Source of the DNA: Cymbomonas tetramitiformis
Lineage: Eukaryota; Chlorophyta; Pyramimonadophyceae; Pyramimonadales; Pyramimonadaceae
Assembly (NCBI GenBank): GCA_001247695.2
Contig: LGRX02027232.1
Span: 18,469 to 82,468 of the forward strand
Direction: 5' to 3'
Length of the DNA stretch: 64,000 nt
The notes under the pieces were generated by a model. That model was given only the letters and a program-made list of their open reading frames with translations. It did no database searches and was not told the DNA's origin. The position numbers were made by a program, and so were the translations under genes. This document shows, piece after piece, positions 6,351 to 61,801 of this stretch. Positions within the stretch are counted from its first letter, which is position 1. Every line of letters begins with the position of its first letter.

Positions 6351-7595
6351 GATCCGGTCAAATCTGTTAATTTATGACCGTTTACAGTCTGCCAAGTGTT
6401 AGTATCCGGTAAAACTGCTAATCCGAGTGCCACGTGTATGATTCCTATTAAAAGTGTTAATTTTCTGTTAATATTCCTTACATGTGTAACGATCTCGCGA
6501 GGGGGGCCTATTTTAACTCCCTCCGGCACCCCTCCGATTAAGTGTTAACATTCTGTTAACCCCTTAGCTGCGACACGTTGAGAATTCTCAACAAGGCCTC
6601 GAAAATGAGAGCGTGGCTTACCATGAAACTGCATATGCGCGGTTGGCGCATCGAATATTGTAAGGTTTGTGGGTGCGCTCATGATATATGGCTACAGGTT
6701 AACCAATAGTATAGCACATATACTAGTGCGATATATCTCTCACGTGTTAGTATTTCCAAACCCAAATTTGTCTATTTGTGTCATTTTGCGCTTAAATTTG
6801 GCTTTGAAAAGTAGCTAACCAACCCATAAACATCCCGTATTGGTAAGCATATACGTGGCCATGTGGAAATATACGATAGAAATGGATCCCAACGCCAGTC
6901 TCGCATGCAACATGGGATATTATATCACCACATAGTCTCATTTTATGAGCAAAAACACCTGAGTTTTAGCTTAAGTATGGAAAACATTTCTTAAGTGAGG
7001 AAAACATTTGAATCCAAGTGTTTTTTCGGTGTTTTTTTGGCCATTTTTGGTATTTTTTGACACATTGGGCGGTATTAATGCGTACTATGGATTAGGGATA
7101 GTCTAATATGTTAATTTCCGCGATATTTTACCATGATACAGGTCAATAAGACTGCAGTCACGCATCGTACACAAGACGTATGCGTAATTTCTATGCTCAA
7201 AATACTCAAAATTTTGGTTGGATAATCCATATATCTCGAGATATACGATAGATATAGCTATACCATGATTCGTTGTGGCTTATTTGATGGTCTCCTACAA
7301 CATACATGATGTCGTATGCGTGCATGCGGCCATGATCACGCAATACTTTGAATTGTCCCCAAACCACATATTTTTGCAAAAGATTCCAACCGCAACTAAG
7401 GGGTTAAAATTGTGTTAATTTAACATTCTGTTAACATTCTGTTAACATGAATTATATAATTCCTTAACTTTCGCCCAAGCCAATCAATAAGTACCACCGG
7501 GATTTATAACACCACTATTAACAGTTCCTACCCGTTAACACTTTTTAACACATAATTAACACTTTTTAACACTTTATTAACAGAAATCCTCAGTG
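6351..7595 (+). other. AT-rich non-coding 3' subterminal region of the CACTA-like element
   Basis: No coding content is seen. The stretch is AT-rich and contains many TGTTAA/TTAACA motifs, dense at 6440-6560 and again at 7400-7585 (for example AACATTCTGTTAACATTCTG). The symmetric placement towards the right end supports a terminal role. Confidence 0.55.
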
Positions 7596-10055
7596 GTGTG
7601 TGACTTCCCGCAGGCTGACTGGCGGCCCTTGCTACGAGAGTACGGAATGGAGATTGCGGAGACCATACCCCGAGTGAACGAGCAAGGGGAGCCCAATCGG
7701 ATGTTCATCTCTCCTGGCGAAGAAAGGGGACACCGTACAGCTTTACAGGAGTTGCCCATTCCATGGCCCGTCTTGGTAGTGTTGGCCAAGCCACAGCGAA
7801 AGCACTTCGACGAGATCACAGCTCCAAGGGTAAGACCCTCAGCATCACCAGCAGTGACTCTCAAGGGTGCGGCAGCTAAGATCAGGGACCAAGCAGGTGT
7901 GGTGGAACCGGGCATGTTTCTGCGTGCCTTACGGGCAGAGCACAGGCGCAGTGAGTACCTTTCAGCCCTGAAGCAAGAACTACTGGCCACTCAGCATCAC
8001 CGCACCGAGCATTTTCGGCTGGTGAGCAACATCATCTGGAGAGTAGCGGAAGGACGCTATCAGGTGGTTTTAGCTCCCGACTCCCCTCTGAGAGAGCTGG
8101 TCTTGAGGGAGGCTCATGAAGCACCTGCAGCAGGTCACACAGGGAGGGACAAGACCTTGGACAGAGTCAGACGACGATTCTGGTGGCCGCGAATGGACCT
8201 GGACGTAGCTGAATGGGTGAAGACGTGTGTAACCTGTCAGCAAACCCAGCCGCGCCAAGGATACCCAGCAGGCCTGTTACAGCCTCACTCTGTGCCTAGT
8301 CGATTGTGGGAAGTGGTGAGTATAGACTTTGTTACTGGGCTTCCCACGACAGAGAGAGGTGTGAATGCCTTCGCCACCTTTACTTGTAAACTGAGTAAGA
8401 TGGTGCACGGGGTCCCAATGGCGTATAACGATAGCTCAGCAGAGGTGGTGACCAGAATGTTCATGGATGCAGTGTGGCGACTGCACGGGGCCCCGATGAA
8501 GATTGTGTGTGACCGGGACCCGCGCTTTCGAGACGCTCTGACTCAGGAGTTCATGCGACTGATGGGCGTGAAGGTAGCCAGCACCACCCCTTATCACCCG
8601 CAGAGTGATGGCCAGGCTGAGCGCAGTAACCACACCGTGGAGCGCATGCTGCGTTGTTACGTGGCAGAGAACCAGGAGGATTGGGACCTGTGGGTGGCTC
8701 CAGTGGAGTACGCCATCAACGACTCCAAGTCGGCAGTGACAGGGTTCTCACCGTTCGAACTGGTGTACGGACATGCGCCAGCGACCCAGTTGGACCTCTT
8801 CATGGACGCAGCTCTGGAGGGAGGCGCAAAGAGGAGGAAGGGAGGTCGCACAGCAGCGGACAAGCAGGGTACCGCTCACCAGTTGGCCAAGCAGTTCGCG
8901 CAGCAGCTGCAGGCGGCACGAGAAGGTTTGCAACTGGCTCAGCAGCGTATGATAGAGCAGTTCGATGCACGGCACCGTCTCCAGCAGTATAAGGTGAATG
9001 ATCAGGTGTGGGTGGATGGACAGCACTTGGCGTTGCCCGGTGACAGGGGCTTGAAACCCAAGCTGCGCAAATTGCGGCACGGACCTCTGCGAGTAGTAGA
9101 GTGTTTGTACAGCGATCGACAGCAAGAACTGCCAGTACAGGACCGAGGAGCCCCGTCAGCATACAGACTGGAGTTGCCCGTGCACTGGAAGGTGCATGAC
9201 ACTTTCACTGCAGACAGGCTTAGCCCAGTACAGTCAGGCGCAGATCACTTTGTCAGCAGACGGGAAGAGATGGCACCGCCGCCAGTAATGGTAGAAGGGC
9301 AAAAGGAGCGCGAGGTGGAGCGCATCATCCGCACACGCTTCAGAAAGCTAGGCGGGAAAACTGGCGGGTCAGTACAGGAGTGGTTGACCAAGTGGAAGGG
9401 ATTACCACACAGTCACAGCCAGTGGCGGACCCAAGAAGACCTGGAGGGCAAGGGAGGCAGGCTGGAACCCCTGAGGGCCTTTGAGGCCGATGAGAAGAAG
9501 CAGAGGAGGGCTCCAGAAAAGAGGCGTAGGGAGACGCACGGTCAGCAGCAGAAGCAGAGGGCTCAGCTCATGGCAATGAGAGCCCCCACTCCGAAGGTTT
9601 ACAGTAAGGGTGCCAGTCAGGTCTACCAGCCGCATCTTACGACGGTGCAACATCCTGTGAGGATCCTCGTCCTCTTCTGTGGGACTGGGTCTGTAGAACA
9701 ACAGTTCCAACGACAGTTCGACGACTGCGAAGTGGTGACAGTGGATATTCTTCCCAAGTGGCAAGCAACATGCACCGAGGACATTCTCCACTGGAACTAC
9801 AGGCTGTACCCCCGACACTATTTCGACGTGATCTGGGCGAGCCCACCATGTAAGGAGTACAGCAAGGCCAAGACTGTGGGAGTACCAGACCTGGAGCTGG
9901 CTGATCGGCGAGTGAAGCGTACCCGGCAGATCATCGAGTACTACGATCCAGTATACTACTTCATTGAGAACCCAGCTGGAGATGCTCTGCGAGGGCTGCA
10001 CACGCGATCTGTGATGAAGGGTTTGCCCGCTCCTCACCCCGTCTCCTACTGTAGG
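7596..10055 (+). pseudogene. Integrase-chromodomain-C5 methyltransferase fusion (part 1, interrupted)
   Basis: One frame of about 820 codons carries: an integrase zinc-binding HHCC (H at about residues 174 and 182, CVTC at about 211-214); the DDE core with D in VVSIDFVTG, D in IVCDRDPRFRD and E in DGQAERSNH (about residues 244, 306, 342); and a chromodomain (EVERIIRTRFRKLGG with EWLTKWKGLPHSHSQW, about 573-625). Then comes a methyltransferase: motif I ILVLFCGTGSV, an acidic VVTVDI strand, TEDILHWNY, catalytic motif IV IWASPPCKEYS with the Cys, and motif VI YFIENPAGD. The 5' end is cut by the CACTA insertion and translation stops at TGA 10056-10058, the first bases of the inserted transposon. 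Proteins of this kind would integrate element cDNA and could methylate it; cytosine methyltransferases captured by retrotransposons have been reported from charophytes and dinoflagellates (de Mendoza and colleagues, 2018). Confidence 0.85.
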
Positions 10056-10086
10056 TGACCACTTCCGCGACTCAGATGGGATGGAT
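10056..10086 (+). repeat. Left terminal inverted repeat (31 bp)
   Basis: Starts TGACCACTTCCGCGACTCAG and is the exact reverse complement of 15892-15922. It is preceded by GG at 10054-10055. Confidence 0.92.
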
Positions 10087-10112
10087 TGACTGTTTTTTGT
10101 ACTCACCCATAT

Positions 10113-10900
10113 GGTGCACGATTCCTATAGTTTAGCATTTTTGAGAACCAATTTTCATGTTGAGAATCTGATATTTGATGTCCACATATGTCAGTTGCAT
10201 GTTACCACAACCCTAATTTGGGTTTAAAGGTCCCAAAATGGACTCAAATTGCAGTTTTAGCCACATTTTAGCAACTTTCACCTTGATTGCGCCCATATGG
10301 GGCGCGATCCCTACGGTCTGGCATTTTTGAGAACCAATTTTCATGTTGAGAATCCGATATTCGATGTCCGCATATGTCAGTTGCATGTTACCACAACCCT
10401 AATTTGGGTTTAAAGGTCCCAAAATGGACTCAAATTGCAGTTTTAGCCACATTTTAGCAACTTTCACCTTGATTGCGCCCATATGGGGCGCGATTCCTAC
10501 GGTCTAGCATTTTTGAGAACTACCTCTAATGCTGAGAATTCGATATTTGATGTCCGCACATGTCAGTTGCATGGTACAATAACCCGAATTTGGGGTTTAA
10601 GGTCCCAAAATGGACTCAAATTGCAGTTTTAGCCACATTTTAGCAACTTTCACCTTGATAGCGCTCATATGGGGCGCGATTCCTACGGTCTAGCATTTTG
10701 AATAACCAATTTTGATGTTGAGAATCCGATATTTGATGTCCGCATATGTCTGTTGCATGGTACATTAACCCGAATTTGGGGTTTAAGGTCCCAAAATGGA
10801 CTCAAATTGCAGTTTTAGCCACATTTTAGCAACTTTCACCTTGATAGCGCTCATATGGGGCGCGATTCCTACGGTCTAGCATTTTTGAGAACTACCTTTC
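10113..10900 (+). repeat. ~186-bp satellite, four copies plus a partial fifth
   Basis: Units starting at about 10113, 10299, 10485, 10672 and 10857 share GGGGCGCGATTCCTACGGTC, TTTTGAGAACCAATTTTCAT and CAAATTGCAGTTTTAGCCAC. Units 3 and 4 share variants absent from 1 and 2, such as a TTTGGGGTTTAAGG form, which suggests stepwise duplication. The array sits just inside the left inverted end. I see no gene in 10901-11690. Confidence 0.88.
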
Positions 10901-11691
10901 ATGTTGGTGGTGACAACTCCGAGATGGAGGATGGTGGAGATGAGACGACATGGGTTGTGTGTGCTCTATACGCATGTCGCCCTCGCGGCGGCCTCTTGTT
11001 GGCATCGGATGCGGATCGGTGTCATTCCACCGGAAATTTTGTTCACTGCATGCATTGCCTGTTAATTTTGCATCGGCTGCGTCGACATGAGCATAACCGC
11101 GTTGCTCTCCCCGCAGCGGAGGTCCGAGGTGCTACAAGCGGGCATCACGCAGCTTTCGCCGTTGCAATAAGTGAACGTGCAATGGGCCCTTTATTATGAG
11201 TGTGATGAAAACCTCAGAGGATAGGGAATTGATGTTCTTTGTGGTTATGACTTATGCATGTTAAGATCTTCCCATATTCACACGATCGCGTAGACGCGTA
11301 CGTAATCGGAGCAGACAGGATGAAGCGGATGGCCACTCGTTTATTATTTGTGCAGCGGTGATTATAAAAATATTCATCTCATCAAGCGATCAGAGGAATT
11401 CGTCACAATCTATCCATCAATGAAGATATCAAACTATGTTGAAATGCTTACTACTCATCATAGCATTATGTATGGCAGGATGCCATGACGTGAGTTATTG
11501 GATCGCCCATATCACATCCATGGGTTTATAACATAAAACACATTTTATGTTCTCGCTCCTCGCTAGCATAACAACATAATCGACCTCTGTGTGTTCACAT
11601 TGAGTGTGTCTATGTCACATACTTGTTGCCACTTTTGCTCTACTCTCGATGATATGGTCTACAAGTGCATTATATATACTCGTGCCGCGGA

Positions 11692-12432
11692 TCAAACTTT
11701 CCTCTTGTTGCCTCGGCCACGAGCAGCAACTTGCGGTGTGGCCGCAGATGATGTAGTTTCTCCTGGCCCTTTGCCTCGTCCACGAGCAACAGGTGGCTGT
11801 GCATCCGCGGATGATGCAACTCCCCCTCGCCCCTTGCCTCGGCCACGAGCAGCAACTTGCGGCACCGCCGTTGATGACGATGCAGCTTCGCCTCGGCCCT
11901 TGCCTCGTCCACGAGCAACAGGTGGCTGTGCAGCCGCAGATGATGCAACTCCCCCTCGCCCCTTGCCTCGGCCACGAGCAGCAACTTGCGGCACCGCCGT
12001 TGATGACGATGCAGCTTCTCCTCGGCCCTTGCCTCGTCCACGAGCCACAGGTTGTGGTGCAGCCCCAGATGATGTAGCTCCTCCTCGCCCCATGCCTAGG
12101 CCACACACAACAAATGGCAGTGCAGCCACTGAGTCGATGTCAGCATCCTCTCCACCCTCTTGATTCTGATATCTTGTGGCATCAACACCCACTTGTCCGG
12201 TGCGACGCACCCTAGAGTAGATCCGAGACAGAAATATTTGGACTTTGGAATCTAAGAGTTGCAACTCTTCGCGCCCTACAAAATGGACATCCATTCTCTC
12301 CCGGAGGGATGCGGCTGTGATCTTGTTATTGAGTTCCCACTGAGCAAGCATGAGGACTTCTTGTTCCTCTGAGAATTGGATGCGCGCGGCTCGTGTTAGC
12401 ATACGCGCCCAGCCTCGCTTTAGCATGGGCGG
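11692..12432 (-). CDS. Last exon: HTH-like segment plus AT-hook-like RGRGKGRG repeats
   Basis: After an acceptor CTCCCTCAG (12433) the frame reads MLKRGWARMLTRAARIQFSE and continues with a helical region (AQWELNNKITAASLRERMDV, LDSKVQIFLSRIYSRVRRTG) that looks like a compact helix-turn-helix or Myb-like DNA-binding fold. A tail made of repeats of VARGRGKGRG/VAARGRGKGRG follows, each resembling an AT-hook (RGR core), ending GRGNKRKV and TGA. A DNA-binding, chromatin-associated role is an inference from composition. In some transposon groups the second protein is such a binding partner of the transposase, which is one possibility here. Confidence 0.58.
   Translation of the reverse strand, partial: PPMLKRGWARMLTRAARIQFSEEQEVLMLAQWELNNKITAASLRERMDVHFVGREELQLLDSKVQIFLSRIYSRVRRTGQVGVDATRYQNQEGGEDADIDSVAALPFVVCGLGMGRGGATSSGAAPQPVARGRGKGRGEAASSSTAVPQVAARGRGKGRGGVASSAAAQPPVARGRGKGRGEAASSSTAVPQVAARGRGKGRGGVASSADAQPPVARGRGKGPGETTSSAATPQVAARGRGNKRKV
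11716..12100 (-). repeat. GC-rich coding minisatellite (AT-hook repeats)
   Basis: A composite unit of about 147 bp, containing GCCTCGGCCACGAGCAGCAA and CTTGCCTCGTCCACGAGC, occurs about two and a half times and encodes the RGRGKGRG tail of exon 4. Because the unit is a multiple of three, all frames stay open through it and several spurious frames appear on both strands. Confidence 0.85.
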
Positions 12433-13847
12433 CTGAGGGAGAGTGAACGTGAAAGCACATGGAAATGATTGTATAGATGTATGCCGCATTATGTTGAAGA
12501 TGCCGTGTGTAAGAGATCACAATGCGCAATATATAGTAGGCACCCGCTAAAACAGCAGGCTCTGGAAGACTAATGAAACTCCATAATGAAAATTGTTTTT
12601 TCCCAAAAGTGTGCCGTGAGCGTGTGTGTGTGTGTGTGACCACGCTCATGCATTTGTATCGTGGATGGATAAATATTGTTATGTGTGTATGTGTGGTGCG
12701 GCCTGTGTGGTGCGGCCTGTGTGGTTTTAGCATGTTTCATATATTACGCATGCTCGGATTTGCTATGCATGCATGTATAGGCTGTGGCATAATTGTCACT
12801 GTGAACATCACTGCATCATTATTAGGCAACTTGCCCCCGGAGAATTTTCTATCCATATTTGTTGGCAATGTGATTCTAGACTTCATCAAAACCCAGCAAA
12901 ATAATTAAGTAATCAACCTTGTTTTGTTTTTGTGCAGTGTTGTGTGTGTGTGCGCGCGTGCGCACGCGCGTGTGAACATGCTTGTGCGGCATGTGTATGA
13001 ATGGATGCATATTGCTGTGTGTGGGTGTGTGGGTGTGTGTGTGTGCAGGCTTTGTGTGCAGGCTGTGTGGCTTTAGTAACTTGTCTAAATTAGGCATGCT
13101 CGGATTTGCTATGTACATTTGTATAGTAGTAGGTTGCATAAACTAAATTGTGTATGCTTGGATTTGCTATGTATACTATCTTGTATATAAGCTGTATATA
13201 CAAGTAGTATACATAGCAAATCCAACCACACTTCTATTGTAGAAAAGTTGCTAAAGCCACACAACATAATACAACCTATACAAGATAGTATACATAGAAA
13301 ATCCAAGCATGCTTAATTTAGAAAAAAAATGCTATATCACCCATGCAGCCTATACAAGTATACATAGTAAATCCAGCCCTACATAATTTAGAAAATTTGC
13401 TACTAAAGACACAACATATTACAGCATATGCAAGATAGTATACCTAGTAAATCCAAGTATAAGTATACACATTGTGATATATCACAGCCTATACAAGTAT
13501 ACATACTCAATCCAAGCATACATAATTTAGAAAAGTTTCTACATCACAGTCTACACAAGTATACAACATAGCAAGTACACGCATACTTAATTTAGAAATT
13601 ATGCTAAAGCCACACAGCCCGCAACACATAACAATATTCATTCATCCATACACACACCGACACGCACACACGCACACACACACAAACACACATATTTAAG
13701 TATTTTGCAATCTTCAACTACACGCATACACTTACACACAATGCGTGGTGGTAAGCCAAGAGTGAATACTAATGTGTACACTTACACACATGAGCACACA
13801 TGAGCACACATGAGCACACATGAGCACACACATGATCACGAGCTTAC
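12433..13847 (-). other. Intron rich in simple repeats and inverted repeats
   Basis: Between exons 3 and 4 the sequence has GT/CA-rich tracts (12624-12640, 12940-13050, 13650-13695), a ten-base TGAGCACACA array (13791-13830) and many copies, in both orientations, of a motif like TACATAGCAAATCCAAGCAT. No coding content is seen. Confidence 0.6.
13158..13225. repeat. Near-perfect 32-bp hairpin
   Basis: The arm TTGGATTTGCTATGTATACT... (13158-13189) is the reverse complement, with one extra base, of 13195-13225, separated by five bases. It is the most complete of several dispersed copies of the same motif in 13080-13610. Confidence 0.85.
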
Positions 13848-14560
13848 CTTGAGGTTTGCTTCCGCTGGAATCTCCACCTTGACGACAGTACCAAGTCCGA
13901 TGCCCCCAAAAATCCAACATCGGAGCATATTTGATTCTGGCCCACCCTCTCGCTCCTTGACATTGTATTTCGATTGAAGATGATGAATGCTATCAAGCTG
14001 TGTATTTTCGGGCAATTTGTGTATGGGAACATAGACAGCCTTATTATCAAGGCCTTTCATGGGTAGGAGGTCCAAAGAGTTCGTGACCTCCTTTGCGGTT
14101 TGCTGATTGGAGCCTTCGCCCCCGCGTCCACGCATGCGCTTCAAGTGTTGGCTGAACTGGCCACCTTTCATGGCGTTTCTACTCTTCCCCTCTCCTGGAA
14201 TGCTGTGAGTGTGCCTCCAGAATGACATGCCGGTGCTGTCCATTGTATCCTCGACCAATGTACCAAACAATAATGCGGCACCGACATAATCCCCTGCTTT
14301 GTCACTAGCTATACTAGCTTTAACTCTCTCGGGATGCATCTGATGATGCGTTGCTGCCGAGAATTTCACTACTCCTAATGCCGTGACAGCACTTTGATTG
14401 CTTTCATCGCTCAGCACATTGTACGTGGAGATGTCAAGCATATGCCTTCGTTGCTCTGGAGATAAATCAGGGGCATCAGCCTCCCGGACTTTCTGATATA
14501 CGCATGCTATATGATGTGAAATTCTGGTCGCATCCCCATAGCCCTCCGCCTGTGTCACCT
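13848..14560 (-). CDS. Exon 3 of the transposon-borne gene
   Basis: About 237 codons, from EVTQAEGYGDATRISHHIAC to EIPAEANLK, at a strong donor CTCAAG|GTAAGC. The N-terminal 130 residues look helical (VYQKVREADAPDLSPEQRRH, GAALLFGTLVEDTMDSTG) and contain scattered His and Asp. I cannot match them to a known transposase or DNA-binding family. The stretch after about residue 150 is basic (KRMRGRGGEG). Splicing to 12432 is in phase 0. Confidence 0.55.
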
Positions 14561-14627
14561 CTGTGGTAAGTCAGCATCAAAGCTAAAAACACATATGTGT
14601 GCGTGCATGTAATGAGCGTGGACCTAC

Positions 14628-14843
14628 CTCGGATACGATGTTTGTCGGCGTGCGACACGGAGTGCATTTCGTTGATCGCCTCGCATTGTTTATGAGATAT
14701 ATACTCCCCAACTTCTTTGTAACTAGATAGTGTTGTCGAAGTGCCATGTGGTGATGTCACCTCCACATTTACATCTGATGCAACTACCATCAACAGTGGT
14801 CGTTTGCGCGGTGTGGTAGTCGTCACTTCGAAAGTAGCACGAT
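14628..14843 (-). CDS. Exon 2 of the transposon-borne gene
   Basis: After an acceptor GTTCAG the frame reads ATFEVTTTTPRKRPLLMVVA and later SYKEVGEYISHKQCEAINEM, ending at CCGAG|GTAGGT. The PRKRP stretch could be a nuclear localisation signal. The splice to exon 3 (acceptor CTTACCACAG at 14561) keeps the frame: KHRIR joins EVTQAEGYG. The link from exon 1 to exon 2 is less certain. Confidence 0.5.
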
Positions 14844-15144
14844 CTGAACTTCAAAGCTCCCTTTCATGCAACACCTCTGCAGCCGTGTCGATGGCAGTCG
14901 TGGCGATGTTATTGGCGGTATGCGCTTGGGCTGCAGCATATCCGATCACCAGCACCGCGTCATGTCGCCGCACACAACTGACACAATGCGCACTCTCTGC
15001 ATGGCGCGCATATGTTTGTGCATAGCTACACGGACGACGCGCGTATTATTACCATTATTATAGAGCGCATACGTTGCCATTATGTCCACAATTAACATCT
15101 GCCGTACTAATATGATAATTCACAATAAGCGTGTGCATGCGTAC

Positions 15145-15514
15145 CATCATCGGCTGTGCAACTTTCCGATCTTGAACGGCCTCTCCTTGTTAACCACTTC
15201 GCGGGGAGTTGATTAGTTGCAGCGTCATCGCCGTCCGTCTCAACTATCAATTGTCGCTCTACATTGATGATAGAATTACTGTCCGAAGCCGAGAAAGCAG
15301 ATACGCCATTCTTTCTACGATCCCGCAACGTCGGCGCATCAGTTTGTATTATTGAAGTCGGAGCTCCGCGTGGATGTCGCCAGTCGTTATCAGAAGGAGG
15401 TTGCTGGGGCAACAAGTGCGCGTTGCTGCAACCTGCCTGCTTAGAGACGCAGCGCGAACACTTATCGTTGGCCGCAAAGTTTAGGATAGAACACGCCTTT
15501 CTATTGCTCGCCAT
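15145..15514 (-). CDS. Exon 1 of the transposon-borne gene (Cys-rich start)
   Basis: The first ATG of a minus-strand frame gives MASNRKACSILNFAANDKCS with further Cys (RCVSKQAGC), a possible small zinc-binding or disulfide-rich N-terminus. A Ser/Arg-rich linker follows (LTRRGRSRSESCTADD). The exon ends at a donor GATG|GTACGC (15145/15144). I do not recognise the domain. It is placed first because it lies nearest the right end and the next exons follow on the same strand. Confidence 0.45.
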
Positions 15515-15891
15515 ATCAGTTGCGAATAGGTTCGGCTACACGACAGCAACTATGCGGCATAATCGCACATACCGCCATTTGCGTATGCGCCATTGACGCT
15601 CGGCTTTGAAACGCTCATGCGCGAAAATTCTCGAGACACTGTGTCTAAAAACATTGCAGAAGCTTACGAAGTAATGCCGTGCATGGCGCTCGCGAATTCA
15701 ACCAACCGGCTTAACAGTGGCTTCACAGTGGCTATCGGCTTCAATGTAAGCTTCTGTAAGCCAAGCACTCAGGAATTTATAAATTCGCGCCAATTCGGCG
15801 TTTCAGGCACCGTGTAATTATTGGTTCGAACGAACCCCCCCCCTTCGCGCCCGACCATCGTCCCAATTCGACGTGTGGGGACCAGTACAAC

Positions 15892-15922
15892 ATCCATCCC
15901 ATCTGAGTCGCGGAAGTGGTCA
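15892..15922 (-). repeat. Right terminal inverted repeat (31 bp)
   Basis: Ends CTGAGTCGCGGAAGTGGTCA, the exact reverse complement of the left end, and is followed by GG at 15923-15924. Confidence 0.92.
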
Positions 15923-16260
15923 GGTATGGGACACCCTACATGAAACCTACACATATCTGGACGAACGCCGTGCTACCCGTACCCCTGCTGCAGTGTACCC
16001 AAGCAACACCATGTCCCGCGAGAGCTGTGCTGGGAAAGCACGAGAGTTCATCGCAGGCAGGAGTTTCAGCGTCCAGAACACGAGGCATGGGGTCAGCGCA
16101 AGCAGTGTGCGCGATCCCCCGCACCTTGTTGCACCATCTGTTCGTGTGGACTGAAGTTGGGGAAGCGCATGAGCGAGGAGAGCGCAGCAGCAGTCATGGA
16201 CATCATCGCCACTCTGACAGCGCAGACGGACGAGATCCCGATGCAGGAACAAGATACTGA
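15923..16260 (+). pseudogene. C5 methyltransferase C-terminal end (part 2, after inserted transposon)
   Basis: Directly after the right inverted end of the inserted transposon the frame continues YGTPYMKPTHIWTNA, which fits the residues expected after the VSYCR that ends part 1 (the ...YCRYG...K.T.IWTN segment at the C-terminal end of the catalytic domain). Joining 10055 to 15925, with one copy of the GG duplication, gives an uninterrupted frame. It goes on for about 95 low-complexity residues rich in Ala, Ser, His and Arg to TGA at 16258-16260. That tail is probably a non-conserved extension of the polyprotein. Confidence 0.8.
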
Positions 16261-16389
16261 GGTCTAAAACCCTCAGGGCGCAAAGCAGCGCAAGACCCGC
16301 AGAGCGAGAGGAGTACCAGGGCGACAGAACCGTTTAAGCGTTGGCAGCGTAATTCGGGGACGGAGCCTCGGGAAACCTCCAGCGCGGAA

Positions 16390-16511
16390 GGGGACTCAGA
16401 CCCAAGGACTGAGGGGCACGGGACCCAAGAACCCGAGGCTTAGAAGCCAGGGGGACTCAGACCCGAGGACTGAGGGGCACGGGACCCGAGAACCCGAGGC
16501 TTAGCAGCCAG
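16390..16511 (+). repeat. 61-bp tandem duplication downstream of the methyltransferase
   Basis: Two adjacent 61-bp units, each starting GGGGACTCAGACCC and ending GAGGCTTAG.AGCCAG, at 16390-16450 and 16451-16511, differ at only a few positions. They lie between the stop codon and the 3' LTR. The rest of 16261-16607 is non-coding 3' region ending in the polypurine tract. Confidence 0.85.
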
Positions 16512-16607
16512 CATCACTGTGCATGTTTGTTGATCCCCAGACAATGTAAATGCAGGCGAACACTAGACGCTAGCGAGGACGTAAGCGCGCGCCTAGGAGG
16601 GAAGAGT

Positions 16608-17266
16608 TGTGCTAGGGTAAGTCACGAGACAGAATGACGACGTGTCAGAATGGCGAGTGACGGGTACTGTGACAGTCACCAATGACAGGCATTTATATGA
16701 CCAGATGACGAGAGTGTCTGACAGAAATGACTGACAGAAATGCCTGACCCGAAAGTGAGTTTTGAAGGTTGAGAGAATTGGTGGGAAACCATTCCAGAAA
16801 TGGTGGGAACCATTTCATATTCAAACAGCCACACAGAACTGGAGGGAAACCAGGAGAGCCCCAGTTCTTGCCACATCATCAGATCTATGACTATTCAGTA
16901 ATTCAGAGCAGAGATCATTGTATGACTGGCAGCTGCAGCCCAAGGGCCAAATGACAAGACCTATCATAGGATATGTGAACATGAAGTGACTGAGCACTGT
17001 GACTGTCGAATTCGGATGAGATCTGAGGGAATTCGAGTCGACATGTTACTACTTAAAGAGCTGAACAAGCTCTCATGGGAGTTTTTGAATTAGTTACACA
17101 CTGGCACTGACCTCTGGTGTCTTGTAACTTCAAACAGTGAAAGTTCACCTAAGTATTAAGAAATATCCGACAATATACAAAGTATTCCGATATCAACCTA
17201 TGGTCCCAGTACCATATTCCCTGTAAGTGTTACTTGCACCCTTGTGAGACTGGTTCAGTCCTCACA
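16608..17266 (+). repeat. 3' LTR of the methyltransferase-carrying gypsy element
   Basis: The stretch begins TGTGCTAGGGTAAG right after a purine tract and ends GGTTCAGTCCTCACA, giving the TG...CA ends of LTRs. Immediately after it, sequence homologous to the gag of gypsy copies B and C resumes (ACACAATCCTTTGTG). The 5' LTR is not in the window, so the boundaries rest on TG...CA, the purine tract and the homology break. Confidence 0.65.
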
Positions 17267-18389
17267 ACCGAACACAATCCTTTGTGACGTGATTGATACG
17301 ACCACAACGTTGGAAAGGCTTAGGAGGATTTGATACTGATCCTTTCCTTTTCCCTTTGCCTTTGCCTTTTCCTCCTTTCCCTTTATTCCTTTGGGAATTC
17401 TGATTGGCATTTTGATTTTGATTGCCATTCTGATTCTGATTCCAATTCCGATTGGATCTGTCATATGGCTTCTTGCCACGGCCTTTGTCCTTGTCTTTTC
17501 TGACTGGGCCTCCTGACTGTTCCTTTTGCCCTCTATAGTGCAGGGTCTCTGACTGCTTCGAATGAACAACATAATTCAAATCGAGCAGGATCTGTGTGGT
17601 TTGTGCCCACGACAGATTATTCCTTTCGTCTTCTGTAAGGAATCTCAGATGGAACTGTTTGCGAAGATCTGATTCCATATTGCGGATGAATCTGTCCTTT
17701 ATCAAAGCATCATCCAGATCAACTGATGCCAAGGCAGCCAGTGATGTGATCGTGCGGAGATAATCTGAAAAGGTCTGGTTTCCTTGATTCAGCGCCATAA
17801 GATGCTTTTTGGCTACTGATCTTTTGTGTGGATTGCCAAACTGACTGAGGAATGTCCTTCTGATATTCTCATACGTGGCATCTGGCTGTTTGGCCACGAC
17901 CTGAAAATAATGTCGGTCATTGTTCTGTATGAGTGTCAGGAAGACTGTAATAATGTCCTTGTCTGGTACTCCTGGATAGGTGAACTGAAAGTATCTATCC
18001 ACTGTATCCAACCAAATCTCAGCATCCTGTCCTGCCTTATATTCCTTAGGTGGAGTCATTTCCACCTTTGGAACTAATGCGGATGGAGCTGGTGCTGGCA
18101 CTGGACCACCATCAGGGTCTGTGAAAACTGTTGGAGCACGATCCTCTGTATACTCTTCGTCTGGTTCATGTGGTTCTGACTCAGGATCTCTATATCTGCT
18201 CATGTCGGGTCTCATACGACTGATGTTGTCGAAGTACCCTATCTCATCGAATCTGGTCTGGGTATTATCATAACCAGTAAGCCATTTGGGTATCTTAAAC
18301 CGACTGTAGGCATCGTAAGAGCCTAAGATATCAAAGAACCAGGTAGATGGATCTGGATTGATAGCTGGAACATCTGGTTCTTCTGCCAT
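17267..18389 (-). pseudogene. Gag of gypsy copy A, truncated at zinc knuckle
   Basis: The protein starts MAEEPDVPAINPDPSTWFFD at 18389 and matches the Gag of B and C over its length. It has a capsid-like helical region (AEIWLDTVDRYFQFTYPGVP, HLMALNQGNQTFSDYLRTIT), an Asn/Gln-rich stretch, a Lys/Gly tract and a zinc knuckle that reads CGRINHVTKDC, where the first Cys pair is already altered. Homology ends at about 17273 where the LTR of the inserted element begins, so the last residues are not Gag. The protein would form particles and bind genomic RNA in an intact copy. Confidence 0.82.
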
Positions 18390-46221: not shown

Positions 46222-46845
46222 TGTCAGGGTCATGACCGATGACATATGTGTCATACATGTCATACGTGTCATGCCTGTCAGACATGTCATACCATGTCAT
46301 GTCATGTCGGTCGTGTCATATATTATTATGACAGTCGACAGTACGGTCGACCATGACTGTACAAGTCGAGTCGCGTCATATATTATTATGACAGTCGTCA
46401 GTACGGTCGACGATGACTGTACATGTCGCCAGATGATAATGTCACATCATCTGTCATTATTCAAGGAAAGACTTGAATGACCTTGTCATCGAGAGTTCGT
46501 ACGTCGAACTCGAAGATGGCAAAGCAAAGATACATCTTGTTTGTACTTCAAGAACCATCTTCGCTTTTAGCATGTGCGGAACACGCATGCGCAGCATGAA
46601 CGAACTAGTCGTTACCACAATGCTGGTCGTTCAACCTATGTCTCGGGTTCACAACCCAATGGCGGTACTATCTATGATGATAGGAGACATATGGTATAAA
46701 GTGAGGAAGCGTTGGGCTTCAGCAGATCTTCTTACAGAGACTGCACTCACAACCCGCTCATACGTACACTCGCATTGCTGTCCAACTTTGCAGTGTTTAT
46801 TTGTATATTGTATAATATTTGTGGGCTCGCATATCAGCTCTAACA
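46222..46845 (+). repeat. 5' LTR of element C
   Basis: Starts TGTCAGGGTCATGACCGATG and ends ATATCAGCTCTAACA. The first 220 bp (U3) hold many TGTCA/TGACA motifs and a ~60-bp tandem duplication containing TATATTATTATGACAGTCG. A TATTGTATAATATTTG stretch near 46805 is a possible TATA box or polyadenylation region. Confidence 0.92.
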
Positions 46846-50067: not shown

Positions 50068-51483
50068 ATGGTTACTATCGAAGAGGAAGAGCATGAGGTT
50101 CCTGATATCAACCCAGATCATTCGACTTGGTTTTTCGACATACTTGGTTCATACGATGCATACAGTCGGTTTAAGGTTCCAAAGTGGATCGCTGGTTATG
50201 CTGAGACACTAACCAGATATGACCACATAGGCTATTATGACAACGTCAGTCGCATGAAACCAGATATGAGCCGGTACAAGGATCCTGCCAATGAGCCTCG
50301 AGCACCAGAAGCAGAGTATACAGAAGACAGTCCTCCGATGGTCTTTGTAGATCCAGATGCAGATTCAGTACCAGCACCAGCTCCACCATCTCCACCCAGT
50401 TTGGTTCCCAAGGTGAAAATGACACCACCTAGGGAATTCAAAGCAGGACAGGACGCGGAGGTCTGGTTGGATACAGTGGACAGATATTTCCAGTTCACTT
50501 ATCCAGGTGTCAATGATAAGGATTTGATCACAGTGTTTCTTACTCTCATACAGATTAACGACAGACACTATTTCCAGGTCTTGGCACAACAACCATATGC
50601 CACCTATGAGATGGTCAGACAGACATTCCTCAGACAATTTGGTAATCCTCATAAGAGATCAGTAGCCAAGAAACACCTTATGGCACTGACTCAAGGAACC
50701 CAAACCTTTGCAGACTATTTGCGCACATTTACATCACTGGCTTCTCTAGCAGCAGTTGATTTAAATGATGTGCTGATAAAGGACAGATTCGTCACTAGTA
50801 TGGATCCAGATCTCCGCAGACAGTTCCAACTCAGATTCCTGACAGAGGAGCAGAGGAATAATCTGTCGTGGCAAGAAACCACACAGATATTGCTTGATTT
50901 GAACTACGTCATTCACTCAAAGCAATTAGAAACCCTTCACTATCGGGGTCAGAAGGAACAGTCATCTGGAGGTCCAGCCAAGAAGGATAAGGACAGAGGA
51001 CGTGGCCAGAAGCCATATGACAGATTCAACAGATTTAACAGAAATCGGAATCAGAATCAGAATGGCAACCAGAATTTCAATCAGAATCGGAACAAGGGAA
51101 AATGTGGTAAAGGCAAGGGCAAAGGAAAAGGAAAAGGAAAAGGACAGAATGATAGGACTTGCCATCGTTGTGGTCGTGTTGGTCACATCGAGAAGGATTG
51201 TTATGCCACCAGGACCGATGATGGAAAAGAGATCAAGGGAAAGTCACCAGCTCAGAATCCTTTTCAGAATCGGAGACAGCAGCAGCAGAATCAGGGTGCT
51301 AAGGATGGATCTGGCAAACTCGTCAACACCATCAACACCTTGGTTAATGAACTGAAGAGCCAGCACAGCATCAATGCAGCAGTTGCAACCCCAGCTCCAG
51401 TTCCAGCTTCAGCTCCAGCTCCTCAGGGAAACTCTCAGGGTACTGCACAGGTACCAGTGATGAGAGCACCCCAGCGGGGATAG
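50068..51483 (+). CDS. gag: Gag polyprotein of element C
   Basis: 471 codons starting MVTIEEEEHEVPDINPDHST (ATG 50068). After a variable acidic N-terminus comes a helical capsid-like region (AEVWLDTVDRYFQFTYPGVN, HLMALTQGTQTFADYLRTFT), then Asn/Gln-rich (NRNRNQNQNGNQNFNQNRN) and Lys/Gly-rich tracts, a zinc knuckle CHRCGRVGHIEKDC at about residues 365-378 (CX2CX4HX4C), and a Gln/Pro/Ala tail. Gag builds the cytoplasmic particle and binds the genomic RNA. It is the closest intact relative of the Gags of A and B. The in-frame GGGAAAC near the end leads into pol by -1 slippage. Confidence 0.92.
   Translation: MVTIEEEEHEVPDINPDHSTWFFDILGSYDAYSRFKVPKWIAGYAETLTRYDHIGYYDNVSRMKPDMSRYKDPANEPRAPEAEYTEDSPPMVFVDPDADSVPAPAPPSPPSLVPKVKMTPPREFKAGQDAEVWLDTVDRYFQFTYPGVNDKDLITVFLTLIQINDRHYFQVLAQQPYATYEMVRQTFLRQFGNPHKRSVAKKHLMALTQGTQTFADYLRTFTSLASLAAVDLNDVLIKDRFVTSMDPDLRRQFQLRFLTEEQRNNLSWQETTQILLDLNYVIHSKQLETLHYRGQKEQSSGGPAKKDKDRGRGQKPYDRFNRFNRNRNQNQNGNQNFNQNRNKGKCGKGKGKGKGKGKGQNDRTCHRCGRVGHIEKDCYATRTDDGKEIKGKSPAQNPFQNRRQQQQNQGAKDGSGKLVNTINTLVNELKSQHSINAAVATPAPVPASAPAPQGNSQGTAQVPVMRAPQRG
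51426..51455 (+). promoter_or_regulatory. Predicted -1 ribosomal frameshift signal (gag to pol)
   Basis: GGGAAAC (51426-51432) lies in gag phase as G GGA AAC, the X XXY YYZ pattern. A six-base spacer TCTCAG follows, then GGTAC TGCACAG GTACC (51439-51455), a five-base-pair hairpin with seven-base loop. The -1 frame is open from there into pol. The heptamer and hairpin are conserved in B. Confidence 0.68.
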
Positions 51484-54400
51484 ATCAGCCTGCAGATGCC
51501 ACTGAAGCAAGTGGCCAGGTTGAGAGTATCTCAGAAGAAGTTCTGTCCAGTCTGACATTGCAGTTTCAGCAAATGGATAATCCCTCAGAGCACATCGCAC
51601 AGATGCAGTCTCAAACAGCACAGCTGAAATCACAGAAGAAGCTGTTGTTGTACAAAGGGAAAGTATTTGGACAGAATACTCACATTTTGGTAGATCCAGG
51701 AGCCACATCATCTTTCATCGACAGACAATTTGCTTCTCAGCTTGGTATATCACCATCAGACTCATCATCATTCTCAGTGGGGTTGGCTGGAGGAAGCCAA
51801 TTACCCTGTACATCTTATCTTCCCAATGCTACATTCACGCTGGGTAAGTATAAGGATTCAGTAGACCTCTATGTTATTGATATGAGGCCCTTCACAGTCA
51901 TCCTGGGACAGGATTGGTTGGAGAGAAGGAACCCACACATAGACTTTCAGTCGAAGAACATGACGATCACCAAGACACACTCATCAGGTTCCAGTGTTCG
52001 TACAGTTCTATCCAGAGTTGAGCAGACTCCAGACTCAGACTCAGATGGCCTTCCTGAAATGGAATTGGTCAGCGCCACCACTATGAGAAAGCATCTTCGT
52101 CGCATTCGATCCAGTGGTTCGGCTGAAGAAGCCGTAGCATATCTCTTTTTCCTCTCAGTGGTCGATGGTGAACTGGTCTTTGCAGCAGCAGACTCAGACA
52201 CCACTATGGAAGACCCCGAGGTCACAGCAGCACGTGACCAAGTGAGAGAAGACTTTTCAGACATATTCCAGGAGGATCTTCCAGCTGGTCATAGGCCAGA
52301 ACGGTTTGAAGGTGGATATCATAGAATCAACATTGAACCTGGACATAAGCCACCATCCCAGCCAATGCGTACCATCCCAGTGCCCATGATGGAGGAGCTC
52401 AAACGGCAAATCATTAAATATGTCGAGTTGGGTATCCTTCGTCCATCATCATCATCATATGGGTGCCCAATCATTTTCGCTCCCAAGCCAGGGGGGAAGT
52501 GGAGGATGTGTTGTGATTATCGTGCCCTGAATAACATCACCATAAAGGACACGTATCCACTGCCACCACACGACACCCTGCTTGAGCAGCTGAAGGGAGC
52601 ACGCTGGTTCAGCAGATTTGATTTCAACCAGTTCTTCCACCAGATCCCCATTCATCCAGACGACATTCATAAAACTGCTATTCGCACCAGATACGGTTCT
52701 TATGAATGGACAGTCATGCCTTTCGGATTGACCAATGCTCCTGCAACGGCACTTCGTGTAGGAAACCGGGCATTCTTTGACTTCATCGACCAGTTTCTTG
52801 TCATATTCATGGACGACACTATTGTATACAGTCCAGACTTTGACAGCCATGTGAAGCATGTTCGACAGTTCCTCCAGCGTTGCAGAGATCATCAGTTCTT
52901 CATCAGGCCTTCCAAGGTGGAGTTGTTCGTCAGATCTATAGACTTTATCGGACATCACATCTCTGAAGCAGGCCTATCCATCATCGAAGACAGAATCCGA
53001 GCAGTCATGGCAATTCAGCCTCCAGTGTCTTATGGTCCCACCGTTGGAAAGCAGCCTCTACGCCGTATGGCTAAAGATGGCAAGTCATCCCTTCGGTCAT
53101 TTTTGGGCATGGTCGGTCAATTTAGGAGATTCATACCAAAGTTCTCCAAAGTTGCCGAGCCGCTCAATCGTCTCCTTAAAGATAACGCAGAGTTTGTCTG
53201 GGAAACTGAGCAGCAGCAGGCATTTGATAACCTCAAAAGTGCCATCTGTAACGCTCCAGTATTGCAGCTTCCAGATCAGAAACTGCCATCTATTATGGAG
53301 GTCGATGGATCAGGCACACACGTTGGTCAAGTAATACTCCAGGATCAAGGAAAAGGTATGAAACCATGTGGTTATCACAGCGTCACTCTATCCGATACAC
53401 AGAGACGTTGGCCTATTCCTGAGATCGAGCTATTTGCCATTGTGGAAGGCTTCCGATTCTTTCGCCACATCTTGTTGGGAGCTCCTGAGACCATTGTACG
53501 CTCAGATCATCAGCCACTGGTTTATTTCCAGACCAAATCCACACTGAGCCCCAAACAGGCACGGTGGTTGGATGAGCTCTCCGAGTACAACTTCCGTATA
53601 GAGCACATTGCTGGCGAGAAGAATAAGGTTGCAGACGCACTCACGCGTATCTCTACACTCTTTGAACTCACTGATTGTCTGAAACATATAGACATCACCG
53701 AGGTTCCACTCATTGACATACCACCTACAGATTCTACATTCATTGCTCTTATATCTTCTTCATCAGCTCATCAGCTGCACGACATCATTATATCCGAGTA
53801 TGATCGTGACACATTTGCACAGACTATTTTGGCTAAGCTGACATCATCGACTTCATCACAGTCAGTCAGCAGCTACAGCTTCGAGCTCATTCAGGGATTG
53901 ATCTATCGTAAGACCATATATGGCAGACAGCTGTACATTCCACCAACAGCTAAAATCCCCACAGATGACGGTGAGATCACACAGCTTCGCCACATTCTCC
54001 TTCATGAGTGCCACTCAGCCACTATTTCTGGTCATGTAGGCAAAAATCGCATGCTTCATCTTCTGCGTAGCCGGTATTATTGGCGAGGAATGACAACGGC
54101 AGCCATCAAGTACATTCGGGAGTGCCCCGTTTGTCAGCGCCAGAAAACGAGGCGACACAAGCCTTATGGTCAGGCACATATACGATATTCCATGCCTAAG
54201 ACAAAATGGCTAGATGTATCTCTTGATTGGATCACTGACCTGCCTATCACCACTAATGGGCACGACAGTATATTTGTGGTAATGTGCCAATTTTCTCATC
54301 GCTGTCATCTCATCCCCTTCAGCATGACCTGGACAGCTCAGCATACTGCTTCTATCTATATGCAGCATATCTTCAAACTCCATGGTCTTCCGAGGAACAT

Positions 54401-55368
54401 CATCTCAGATCGAGACCCCAGATTCACCTCTACATTCTGGCAGACACTGTGGAAATCTACTGGTACGAGATTGTCCATGACATCATCACACCATCCACAG
54501 TCGAATGCTGCCAATGAGAGGAGCCATGCCTTCATTGAGGACATCCTCAGGTAATTTTCAAATTGTTGATTCATGATTTGATTTCACCATCCTCTGGTTT
54601 ATAAACTGATTAAGTAGTATTTTTTTTTACATCCTCAGGTGTTGTTGCAATGATACTTCAGCCAATTCGTGGGAGGACAAGTTGCCTCTGGTGGAGTTTG
54701 CAATTAACAATACCGTTTCTGCATCAAGTGGTTATTCACCATTTTATCTCGACTCGATGGCGCAACCACTTTCGCCTCATGACCTGGTTATCACTATTCC
54801 GCCAGAAGCTCCTGTTCCGATACAAAGAGCTATTCGAGATCATTTTGACCAGTACTCGGCTGTTCATGCCAACGCGGTAGACAACATTTCCCGAGCAGCA
54901 GATATTAGCCAAGCCAGATTCAATAAGACTCATATGCCTAAGCAGTTTGCAGTCGGGCAGAAAGTTCTTTTACGGACTGAGTTTATTCAATGGACTGGTT
55001 TGACAGAGGCAGGCAGACACTTTAAGCAGCCGTATATTGGGCCGTTCACTATATCCAAAGTGCTTAGCCATGGACGTGCATACGAGTTAGATTTCGGAAA
55101 CCTCGATATCCGTATTCATCCAGTACAGCCTGTATCCAGACTAGAGCTGTACAATGACTCGATCCAAGCACCTTTGCCTCTGCCACAGATGATCACCGAA
55201 GAAGGGCAACCACTGTTTGAGATATCACATATACTCTCGGATAAGTTCACTAGCGGTGTCAAATACTATTTAGTGCGATATGCAGGCTACGGCCCTGAGC
55301 ATGACACCTGGGTCAAAGCCACAGAGCTGACCAATGCAGCAGACATCATAGCTGCCTATGAAGGCTAA
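51433..55368 (+). CDS. pol: Pol polyprotein of element C: PR-RT-RNaseH-IN-chromodomain (one intron)
   Basis: It is translated by -1 shift from gag; coding is 51433-54550 joined to 54639-55368. Domains: aspartic protease LVDPGATSSFIDRQFA (about 51690); reverse transcriptase with WRMCCDYRALNNITIKDTYP, MPFGLTNAP and FLVIFMDDTIVYS (FMDD at about 52806); RNase H EVDGSGTHVGQVILQDQGKG through VRSDHQPLVYF to KNKVADALTR; integrase zinc finger (HECHSATISGH ... CPVCQRQK), catalytic D in SLDWITD, D in ISDRDPRF and E in NAANERSHAF (GAG 54516-54518); then PLVEFAINNT and, at the end, a chromodomain (EISHILSDKFTSGVKYYLVR, YAGYGPEHDTWV). No stop or frameshift is seen. It makes the cDNA and inserts it, with the chromodomain probably guiding integration. 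Confidence 0.93.
54551..54638 (+). other. 88-bp intron in integrase of element C
   Basis: The donor is CATCCTCAG|GTAATTTTC, with a poly-T tract before the acceptor TTTACATCCTCAG|GTG. Splicing joins DILR to CCCNDTSANSWEDKLPLVEF, the expected continuation of a gypsy integrase; unspliced, TAA follows at once. ACATCCTCAGGT is repeated exactly at both splice sites. Confidence 0.88.
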
Positions 55369-56388: not shown

Positions 56389-57016
56389 TGTCGGGGTCAT
56401 GACCGATGACATATGTGTCATACATGTCATACGTGTCATACCTGTCAGACATGTCATACCATGTCATGTCATGTCGGTCGTGTCATATATTATTATGACA
56501 GTCGACAGTACGGTCGACCATGACTGTACAAGTCGAGTCGCGTCATATATTATTATGACAGTCGTCAGTACGGTCGACGATGACTGTACATGTCGCCAGA
56601 TGATAATGTCACATCATCTGTCATTATTCAAGGAAATACTTGAATGACCCTGTCATCGAGAGTTCGTACGTCGAACTCGAAGATGGCAAAGCAAAGATAC
56701 ATCTTGTTTGTACTTCAAGAACCATCTGCGCTTTTAGCATGTGCGGAACACGCATGCGCAGCATGAACGAACTAGTCGTTACCACAATGCTGGTCGTTCA
56801 ACCTATGTCTCGGGTTCACAACCCAATGGCGGTACTATCTATGATGATAGGAGACATATGGTATAAAGTGAGGAAGCGTTGGGCTTCAGCAGATCTTCTT
56901 ACAGAGACTGCACTCACAACCCGCTCATACGTACACTCGCGCGCATCGCTGTCCAACTTTGCAGTGTTTATTTGTATATTGTATAATATTTGTGGGCTCG
57001 CATATCAGCTCTAACA
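56389..57016 (+). repeat. 3' LTR of element C
   Basis: Starts TGTCGGGGTCATGACCGATG, ends ATATCAGCTCTAACA and is followed by ATCGA. Confidence 0.92.
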
Positions 57017-61707: not shown

Positions 61708-61801
61708 CTGCCAAATAGCAACAGGGCTCACAATCAACTTAAAGGGGGCATATAACAAAATTAAGACACAAACATAAAACAACAAGATTCACGAAAAACA
61801 T

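Follow-up and report, generated by a model that had tools for sequence, protein, structure and literature searches.

A Ty3-like retrotransposon family with a virus-type C5 cytosine methyltransferase and a Dam-type domain in the green alga Cymbomonas tetramitiformis

Background

Retrotransposons that encode DNA methyltransferases present a puzzle, namely why a mobile element should write the mark that normally silences it. C5 cytosine methyltransferases have been reported in LINE and DIRS elements of Symbiodinium and in Gypsy elements of Klebsormidium; in yeast, some of these element-encoded DNMTs carry out de novo methylation of CG, self-methylation of retrotranscribed DNA has been suggested, and CG was reported to be reduced solely in the SymbioLINE elements (De Mendoza et al., PMC5890265). 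A review places Dam in DIRS elements and Dcm in Ty3/Gypsy and DIRS elements, and lists green algae and charophytes as hosts of such retrotransposons (PMC6338049). Here we describe a further case from Cymbomonas tetramitiformis, a pyramimonadophyte green alga with an assembly of 851.7 Mb. The stretch analysed, hereafter the window, comprises 64,000 nucleotides (G000:C18187:18469-82468 in our numbering) and contains part of a Ty3-like, chromodomain-bearing retrotransposon. Although C5-bearing retrotransposons are already known from Symbiodinium and Klebsormidium, what is new here is a short virus-type C5 enzyme placed after the chromodomain, together with a Dam domain, in a Ty3-like element with long terminal repeats (LTRs).

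KnitGypsy-Dnmt3 of Klebsormidium nitens resembles this element in that a C5 methyltransferase under purifying selection lies within the Pol of an element with Gypsy domains in a green-lineage alga. However, its methyltransferase is of the DNMT3 type and its repeats are DIRS-like (PMC5890265), whereas the Cymbomonas enzyme is a short virus-type C5 enzyme after a chromodomain, the repeats are ordinary LTRs, and a Dam domain is added. SymbioLINE-Dnmt and SymbioDIRS-Dnmt3 are likewise high-copy retrotransposons with C5 methyltransferases, but they are LINE and DIRS (tyrosine recombinase) elements with orphan or DNMT3 enzymes, and the SymbioLINE elements are CG-depleted (PMC5890265), whereas CpG-specific decay was not observed in the Cymbomonas family. 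A Dam-type domain in a retrotransposon polyprotein is familiar from DIRS elements (PMC6338049; PMC3783388); in Cymbomonas, in contrast, it belongs to a Ty3-like element, in which it stands between RNase H and a DDE integrase and is accompanied by a C5 methyltransferase. The Ty3/Gypsy pol with a chromodomain is shared with chromoviruses, among them Cymbomonas elements that have been termed Chlamyvir-related and that perhaps include the present ones (PMC10675990), whereas another chromodomain element in the window, at 50068-55368, ends at the chromodomain without the C5 extension. The methyltransferase of Tetraselmis virus 1 (A0A2P0VN45) and the families phrog_757 and phrog_363 have the same short C5 fold, but the viral protein comprises 218 residues and is not fused to an integrase.

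The 2015 Cymbomonas genome paper mentioned very high-coverage scaffolds with matches to a chromodomain, RNase H and a cytosine methyltransferase (PMC5741210). The 2023 paper described Chlamyvir-related chromoviral pols and a nanopore-based assembly, and the term 'methyl' does not occur in its main text as available (PMC10675990). Among the matches listed in the titles and abstract openings of the openly licensed literature, neither this element nor any Ty3 element with both Dam and C5 domains was described.

Organisation of the element

The organisation of the family was read from one fetched copy (L134, contig C17390) and from database proteins. The two LTRs flanking the C17390 copy align over 522 nt at 99.2% identity, and its pol of 2,467 aa reads, in order, protease, reverse transcriptase (RT), RNase H, Dam, integrase, chromodomain and C5 methyltransferase. 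Pfam placed the protease at residues 365-455, RT at 850-1010, RNase H at 1106-1207, the integrase H2C2 domain at 1696-1754 and the integrase core (rve) at 1773-1869, the last with 30.4 bits (cut-off 32.6), and the chromodomain (PF00385) is also present. The C5 part was identified by its 98% identity to the methyltransferase of the window and by the shared C-terminus. A gag frame lies upstream of pol, with a CCHC knuckle at 20.6 bits, just below the cut-off of 20.8, and the nearest solved chain to the RT/RNase H is that of Ty3 (E 3.8e-115). With the order protease-RT-RNase H-integrase, gag upstream and LTRs, the element is a Ty3/Gypsy-like LTR retrotransposon; the chromodomain C-terminal to the integrase, a trait of chromoviruses, is present in both L134 and the window copy. 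The ends of the C17390 copy, the one copy inspected, show no obvious target-site duplication.

On the forward strand of the window, the 3' half of such a pol extends over 7593-10055, up to an insertion (83% nucleotide identity to L134 6286-8734, 90% amino acid identity). A single open frame at 7593-10058 (821 aa) encodes the integrase, the chromodomain and then the short C5 cytosine methyltransferase, as seen from the open reading frame call and Pfam. The H2C2 zinc-binding domain of the integrase lies at 8079-8255 (PF17921, Integrase_H2C2, residues 163-221, E 4.4e-23), the catalytic core at 8310-8600 (PF00665, residues 240-336, E 3.4e-8) and the chromodomain at 9312-9452 (PF00385, Chromo, residues 574-620, E 3.4e-8), all above their cut-offs. 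The N-terminal part of the methyltransferase, at 9657-10055, contains CGTGS, SPPC and ENP, which we take to be motifs I, IV and VI; it matches phrog_363 (E 4.9e-11), and the 150 genome places that were scored match it at 95-100% identity. The C-terminal part, from YGTPYMKPTHIWTN to the pol end QEQDTEV and stop, lies at 15923-16267 on the same strand, where it aligns with the database proteins P0002 (626-749), P0007 (840-917) and P0001 (834-873) and, in two frames, with L134 pol 2354-2467, the identity to L134 being 98% over 762 nt.

The presence of a C5 methyltransferase in the pol of a Ty3-type, chromodomain-bearing element had been recognised in the initial annotation, and the Pfam and PHROG matches, the genome copies and the anatomy of L134 bear this out. 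The annotation had read one frame from the integrase through the methyltransferase to a C-terminal YCRYG...IWTN block. This holds for 7593-10058, where integrase, chromodomain and the CGTGS, SPPC and ENP motifs stand in one frame, but the block lies in another frame beyond the insertion; a frame continuous down to IWTN is ruled out by an element with terminal inverted repeats (TIRs) at 10056-15922 and by relatives that run uninterrupted. The H2C2 and rve domains of the integrase lie at 8079-8600; the stretch 7593-7810 ahead of them is not integrase and is similar to the end of a Dam-type domain. Four features had been overlooked: the insertion bounded by TIRs, the loss of the 5' part, the shift of frame and the second methyltransferase domain, of the Dam type.

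Downstream of pol, the window copy has two 61-bp tandem units in its 3' untranslated part (16390-16511, forward strand; repeat search), which are also found in L134, and its LTR at about 16605-17128 (forward strand; 97% identity to the LTR of the C17390 copy, L136 318-839). Beyond the LTR, about 146 bp at 17128-17274 still match leader-like sequence that follows the 5' LTR of the C17390 copy, and it looks as if a second, truncated element had stood in tandem.

The second, Dam-type methyltransferase domain

The remnant at 7593-7810 (forward strand), recognised by alignment with relatives, resembles the C-terminal tail of a Dam domain, the N6-adenine methyltransferase type. About the first 70 residues align with this tail, and the identity is 70% over 87 residues to P0010 and 37-46% over 65-71 residues to the Dam-bearing proteins P0006, P0132, P0141 and P0143. 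The NPP[YF] part of the domain is missing, so that the window copy retains the Dam tail alone and the pol from the integrase onward. In the four Dam-bearing proteins, PF05869 scores above its cut-off of 28.1 bits (P0006 37.0, P0141 43.6, P0143 40.1, P0132 38.1) and the W[C..]NPP[YF] motif is present. In P0132 and P0141 the domain stands between RNase H and integrase, and in P0006 it follows a weak RNase H match. In P0143, whose sequence begins at this domain, it precedes the integrase. Dam, integrase, chromodomain and a C5 methyltransferase with SPPC are found in a single protein in P0141 and P0143, and likewise in P0006; P0143 may itself be from Cymbomonas, because its methyltransferase end is close to that of P0034. 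A search with the Dam region returned 18 matches from 99 candidates, 12 of them from Cymbomonas and the other six ENA or EukProt entries. Because all domains are read in the one pol of L134, the Dam-type domain belongs to the family.

Dam-type domains were also seen in two ENA proteins of other make-up. P0145 (1,517 aa) is a Ty1/copia-type pol (RVT_2) with PF05869 above cut-off between integrase and RT, and P0146 (1,736 aa), a Ty3-like pol, has Dam and PHD matches, both below threshold, in the stretch from RNase H to integrase.

Abundance of the family and constraint on the methyltransferase

The genome was searched with the 145-aa methyltransferase piece of the window, and 150 places were scored of 7,115 first-look candidates. 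All 150 match the piece at 95-100% identity with no stop, and 9 of them sit in frames of at least 2,400 aa. The family is very abundant, and it looks recently active, judging from the LTR identity in the one copy measured. The loci used for comparison (30 with the window's own, 29 without it) were the most similar of the 150 to the window methyltransferase, and the sample is therefore biased toward close copies.

Among the 29 relatives, the whole C5 domain of 258-259 aa is present in 23, the chromodomain motif VERII (scored as a literal motif, not by profile) stands in the same frame in 26, and 21 have both; in 12 of them the full domain, VERII and the integrase motif DRDPRF all fall within the fetched stretch. 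CGTGS, SPPC and ENP are kept in 30 of 30 loci, the window's own included. From codon-aligned counts, the ratio of nonsynonymous to synonymous polymorphism (pN/pS) is 0.093 for the N-terminal part of the methyltransferase (29 copies) and 0.15 when the domain is counted in full (23 copies); around the chromodomain (29 copies) it is 0.099 and in the integrase region (17 copies) 0.077, although pS itself is very unequal between regions (0.04 for the methyltransferase, 0.43 for the integrase). The value from a second program, calculated for 210 pairs among 21 copies, was 0.144. These values place the methyltransferase under purifying selection, with a constraint that appears close to that on the integrase.

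Identity and origin of the C5 enzyme

With the curated PF00145 cut-off at 22 bits, the truncated piece of the window (12.0 bits, E 0.14) and its relatives P0007 (21.3) and P0002 (21.1) fall below, whereas P0012 (23.7), P0031 (24.4) and P0078 (36.5) score above. Among the PHROG DNA-methyltransferase families, phrog_363 is matched by the window piece at the E-value given above and phrog_757 by the whole P0007 domain (1.5e-16). The identity of the C5 domain is secured by the PHROG matches, the relatives above the Pfam cut-off and the predicted fold of P0012 (AlphaFold model with a predicted local distance difference test score, pLDDT, of 80.9 and a predicted template modelling score, pTM, of 0.72). 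Neither of the two findings that the initial annotation had named as refuting it was made, as some relatives score above the profile cut-off and intact relatives (P0002, P0007 and genome loci) extend through the methyltransferase. In an alignment of 53 rows that includes short stand-alone enzymes, SPPC and ENP are invariant, as are several C-terminal positions, and G48 and S51 of motif I are almost so. The same chromodomain-methyltransferase fusion is found in the metagenome proteins P0031, P0041, P0065 and P0108, at 44-55% methyltransferase identity.

A sequence search of the PDB with the methyltransferase segment of P0007 returned a single chain at E 0.6. In a Foldseek search with the P0012 model, the best viral model was the putative cytosine methyltransferase of Tetraselmis virus 1 (A0A2P0VN45; E 1e-21, TM 0.88 by target length, 36% identity). 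A scan of viral contigs with the window piece gave 1 locus, and the relatives of the stand-alone P0078 in phage records are all distant (11 records, 28-36% identity). A profile of the C5 domain found 4,441 proteins (8,000 candidates scored), and among the best 120 many are stand-alone proteins of ~190-220 aa.

In an unrooted tree of 122 rows, all 10 chromodomain-fused rows and 20 of the 21 rows of at least 260 aa fall on one 58-row side, with a support of 98 in the Shimodaira-Hasegawa-like approximate likelihood ratio test (SH-aLRT); this side also includes 23 short rows and 5 other Cymbomonas rows, and the opposite side consists of 63 short rows and one long row. P0020 (short) and P0023 and P0126 (without SPPC) were dropped from this tree, and P0003-5 and P0008-11 had been left out beforehand. 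In an enlarged tree, which contained 57 of the 120 listed profile matches, four further proteins and 19 IMG/VR rows (from 45 viral loci tried, 81 fetched), the element group of 35 rows has an SH-aLRT of 98, and all 19 viral rows, the host C5 methyltransferase and that of a second Ty3-like family described below lie outside it. L002, the host enzyme that scores highest with PF00145 in the genome, branches at a great distance from the element group; it is the only host enzyme in the comparison, the other two of three host loci having yielded no segment, and the trees do not include a DNMT1/3 reference set. The label of chromodomain fusion needs 9 changes in the 122-row tree and 8 in the enlarged tree; many rows are partial gene models.

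These results suggest that the C5 enzyme probably derives from a short stand-alone methyltransferase lineage of algal DNA viruses rather than from a host DNMT. An origin from a DNMT3-type enzyme, like that in Klebsormidium, is made less likely by the PHROG and viral-model matches. A short methyltransferase of the same type, 49% identical to that of the window, was also seen in P0129 (EukProt Tetstr1, 23 member sequences). The name presumably stands for Tetraselmis striata, and P0129 would then probably come from another green alga and possibly from another mobile family.

Damage to the window copy

The window copy itself is dead: it lacks all parts of the element upstream of 7593, an insertion of 5,867 bp splits the methyltransferase, and the frame shifts near 16143. 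The inserted element (10056-15922, strand not assigned) is bounded by perfect 31-bp TIRs at 10056-10086 and 15892-15922, which are complementary at 31 of 31 positions, and the open frame ends at a stop at 10056-10058 within the left repeat. P0002 and P0007 run uninterrupted across the site, the match to the window resuming at 15922, and L134 is also continuous there, its positions 8731-8734 aligning with both window flanks. The target duplication is ambiguous, GG or possibly AGG to AGGT. The change of reading frame near 16143 is seen relative to P0002, P0007, P0001 and L134. For the missing 5' part (gag, protease, RT, RNase H and the front of Dam), queries with L134 pol and gag found no close match, either elsewhere in the window or in the 18.5 kb that precede it, and they matched the other retrotransposons of the window at no more than 23-41% identity.

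The ends of the TIR element read T...A inside an (A)GG(T) site, which makes the junctions AG|GT...AG|GT, and GT-AG splicing exactly at these ends would therefore restore an uninterrupted frame. The insertion may thus represent an introner-like arrangement. Introners with TIRs have been described (PMC9860276). Among the fetched loci, none other contained the 31-bp TIR.

Possible roles of the methyltransferases

The window carries the decayed remains of one member of a very abundant family of Ty3-like elements with a chromodomain (protease-RT-RNase H-Dam-integrase-chromodomain-C5), and on balance we lean towards a C5 enzyme that derives from a virus and methylates the DNA of the element. Processing of the polyprotein would release the C5 enzyme, probably still tethered to the integrase and the chromodomain, and the enzyme would then methylate the element's own DNA, either while this is still reverse-transcribed DNA inside the particle or preintegration complex or once it has newly inserted. 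Together with the Dam-type domain, the result could be a two-base modification of element DNA before or during its joining to the genome. Such catalytic use on element DNA is what we infer. A more tentative idea, less likely than not, is that the two DNA writers flanking the integrase form a portable modification unit, in which the complementary DNA (cDNA) is marked on A and C before or at integration, either to shield it from nucleases of the restriction type made by giant viruses of algae or to establish a chromatin state that can be inherited.

Several observations weigh against the preferred reading. The initial annotation had proposed that the enzyme marks the element's own DNA; this found no support, as no C-to-T excess at CpG was detected among polymorphic columns (44 of 221 CG vs 190 of 907 CH). 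For 72 close pairs of 21 loci, the C/T change was 0.0202 at CG, 0.0189 at CHG and 0.0195 at CHH, and for all 30 loci it was, per comparison, 0.090 at CG, 0.060 at CA, 0.074 at CC and 0.097 at CT, with no CpG-specific excess in either set. The ratio of observed to expected CpG is 0.64-0.80 in the family vs 0.50 in the other chromodomain element of the window (50068-54554), which lacks a PF00145 match in its three frames. Profile support is thin in places: the Dam domain of L134, with WCNPPF, scores 27.7 bits, just under the cut-off of 28.1, at E 0.1 no PF00145 match is reported for the pol of L134, PF00145 stays below its cut-off of 22 in P0006 (21.4), P0141 (20.1) and P0143 (17.3), and Chromo in P0141 reaches 20.9 bits against a cut-off of 25.1. 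As to the source of the enzyme, which had been annotated as virus-like rather than DNMT1/DNMT3, PHROG, the tree and the Tetraselmis virus 1 model agree with that proposal, but the solved structures that best match the P0012 model are DNMT3A/B (E 5.6e-9 and weaker, TM about 0.5, 13-16% identity), followed by DNMT1, M.HaeIII and M.HhaI (TM 0.35-0.49 by query length across these). Furthermore, two features keep a transfer from virus to element tentative: the roots are unsure (midpoint in the 122-row tree, very long outgroup branches in the enlarged tree), and 10 of the 35 rows of the element group are short proteins, of which P0053, P0063, P0078 and P0082, which form one group, may be genuine stand-alone enzymes. 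The CpG data count against long-standing heavy CpG methylation of the copies, but they are compatible with methylation at another motif, or of the cDNA only.

Alternatively, the integrase-chromodomain-methyltransferase unit may methylate the neighbourhood of its landing site after integration and thereby place new copies in silent chromatin that is tolerated and that host enzymes then maintain. We regard this as possible but less likely; the chromodomain lies directly N-terminal to the methyltransferase in the same frame, VERII being in frame in 26 of 29 relatives, and prasinophyte methylomes have been described as DNMT5-regulated (PMC12344493), but the copies show no excess of CpG transitions. 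The presence of two different methyltransferase types within one pol would also suit a role in defence or attack, in which modification of A and C guards the cDNA against nucleases of the restriction type, whether from giant viruses of algae or derived from bacteria, or in which the enzymes hamper co-infecting DNA viruses. The nearest viral model comes from an algal giant virus, endogenous viral elements are plentiful in the Cymbomonas genome (PMC10675990), and an antiviral role for the methyltransferases of such elements was proposed earlier (PMC6338049); the proposal is, however, purely inferential, and we regard it as rather improbable.

It is very improbable that the methyltransferase fold is kept merely as a module for DNA binding or targeting, with catalysis dispensable. 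Chromodomains, another addition to the integrase C-terminus, do act as targeting modules, as a 2008 paper (cited in PMC5741210) says in its title, but CGTGS, SPPC and ENP are retained in every one of the 30 loci, and SPPC and ENP do not vary over the 53 aligned rows, short stand-alone enzymes included. That the domain is a passenger of chance read-through or of an assembly join has a negligible probability. The window copy, taken alone, is truncated, split and frame-shifted, as such an accident might be, but the piece is found at 150 of 150 scored places, which rules out a chance fusion or an assembly artefact; pN/pS is about 0.1, and the fusion recurs in the four metagenome proteins at 44-55% identity.

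The Cymbomonas family makes the puzzle of methyltransferase-bearing retrotransposons directly testable, as it combines high copy number, apparently recent activity, a constrained methyltransferase and two methyltransferase types with a nanopore-based assembly (PMC10675990), and it ties algal giant viruses, retrotransposons and host methylomes together. With a cytosine enzyme at the end of its integrase and an adenine-type domain on the other side, the element may modify DNA chemically in the course of its own life cycle.

Other elements in the genome and the window

A genome search with PF00145 gave 124 matches (123 candidates scored), which are mostly short (profile positions ~57-126, E about 1e-9), and four of the 124 lie in frames of exactly 2,398 aa. 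Twelve of these short-match places were fetched, and five, which represent a second Ty3-like family, were scanned with Pfam: L010 1085-8278 (G000:C24634), L012 (C1237), L014 (C163), L016 (C21975) and L019 (C23118). RT, RNase H, C5 methyltransferase and integrase zinc finger occur in that order in all five scanned frames, so that the methyltransferase precedes the integrase, and a PHD finger is present in four of them. This second C5-bearing family with a PHD finger may point to repeated independent selection for retrotransposons that combine a writer and a reader. In L010, a further methyltransferase-like stretch, WDPWAGTG...TSPW, was noticed by eye near the C-terminus, where Pfam gave no match.

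Within the window, the other Ty3-like element at 50068-55368 comprises gag, a protease-RT-RNase H-integrase pol and a chromodomain frame, and PF00145 matched none of its three frames. The same 60-bp tandem array, with an identical consensus unit, occurs at 46291-46428 and at 56458-56595, ~10 kb apart, and a 257-bp tandem repeat at 61794-62831 is present in 4 copies with 96% matches.

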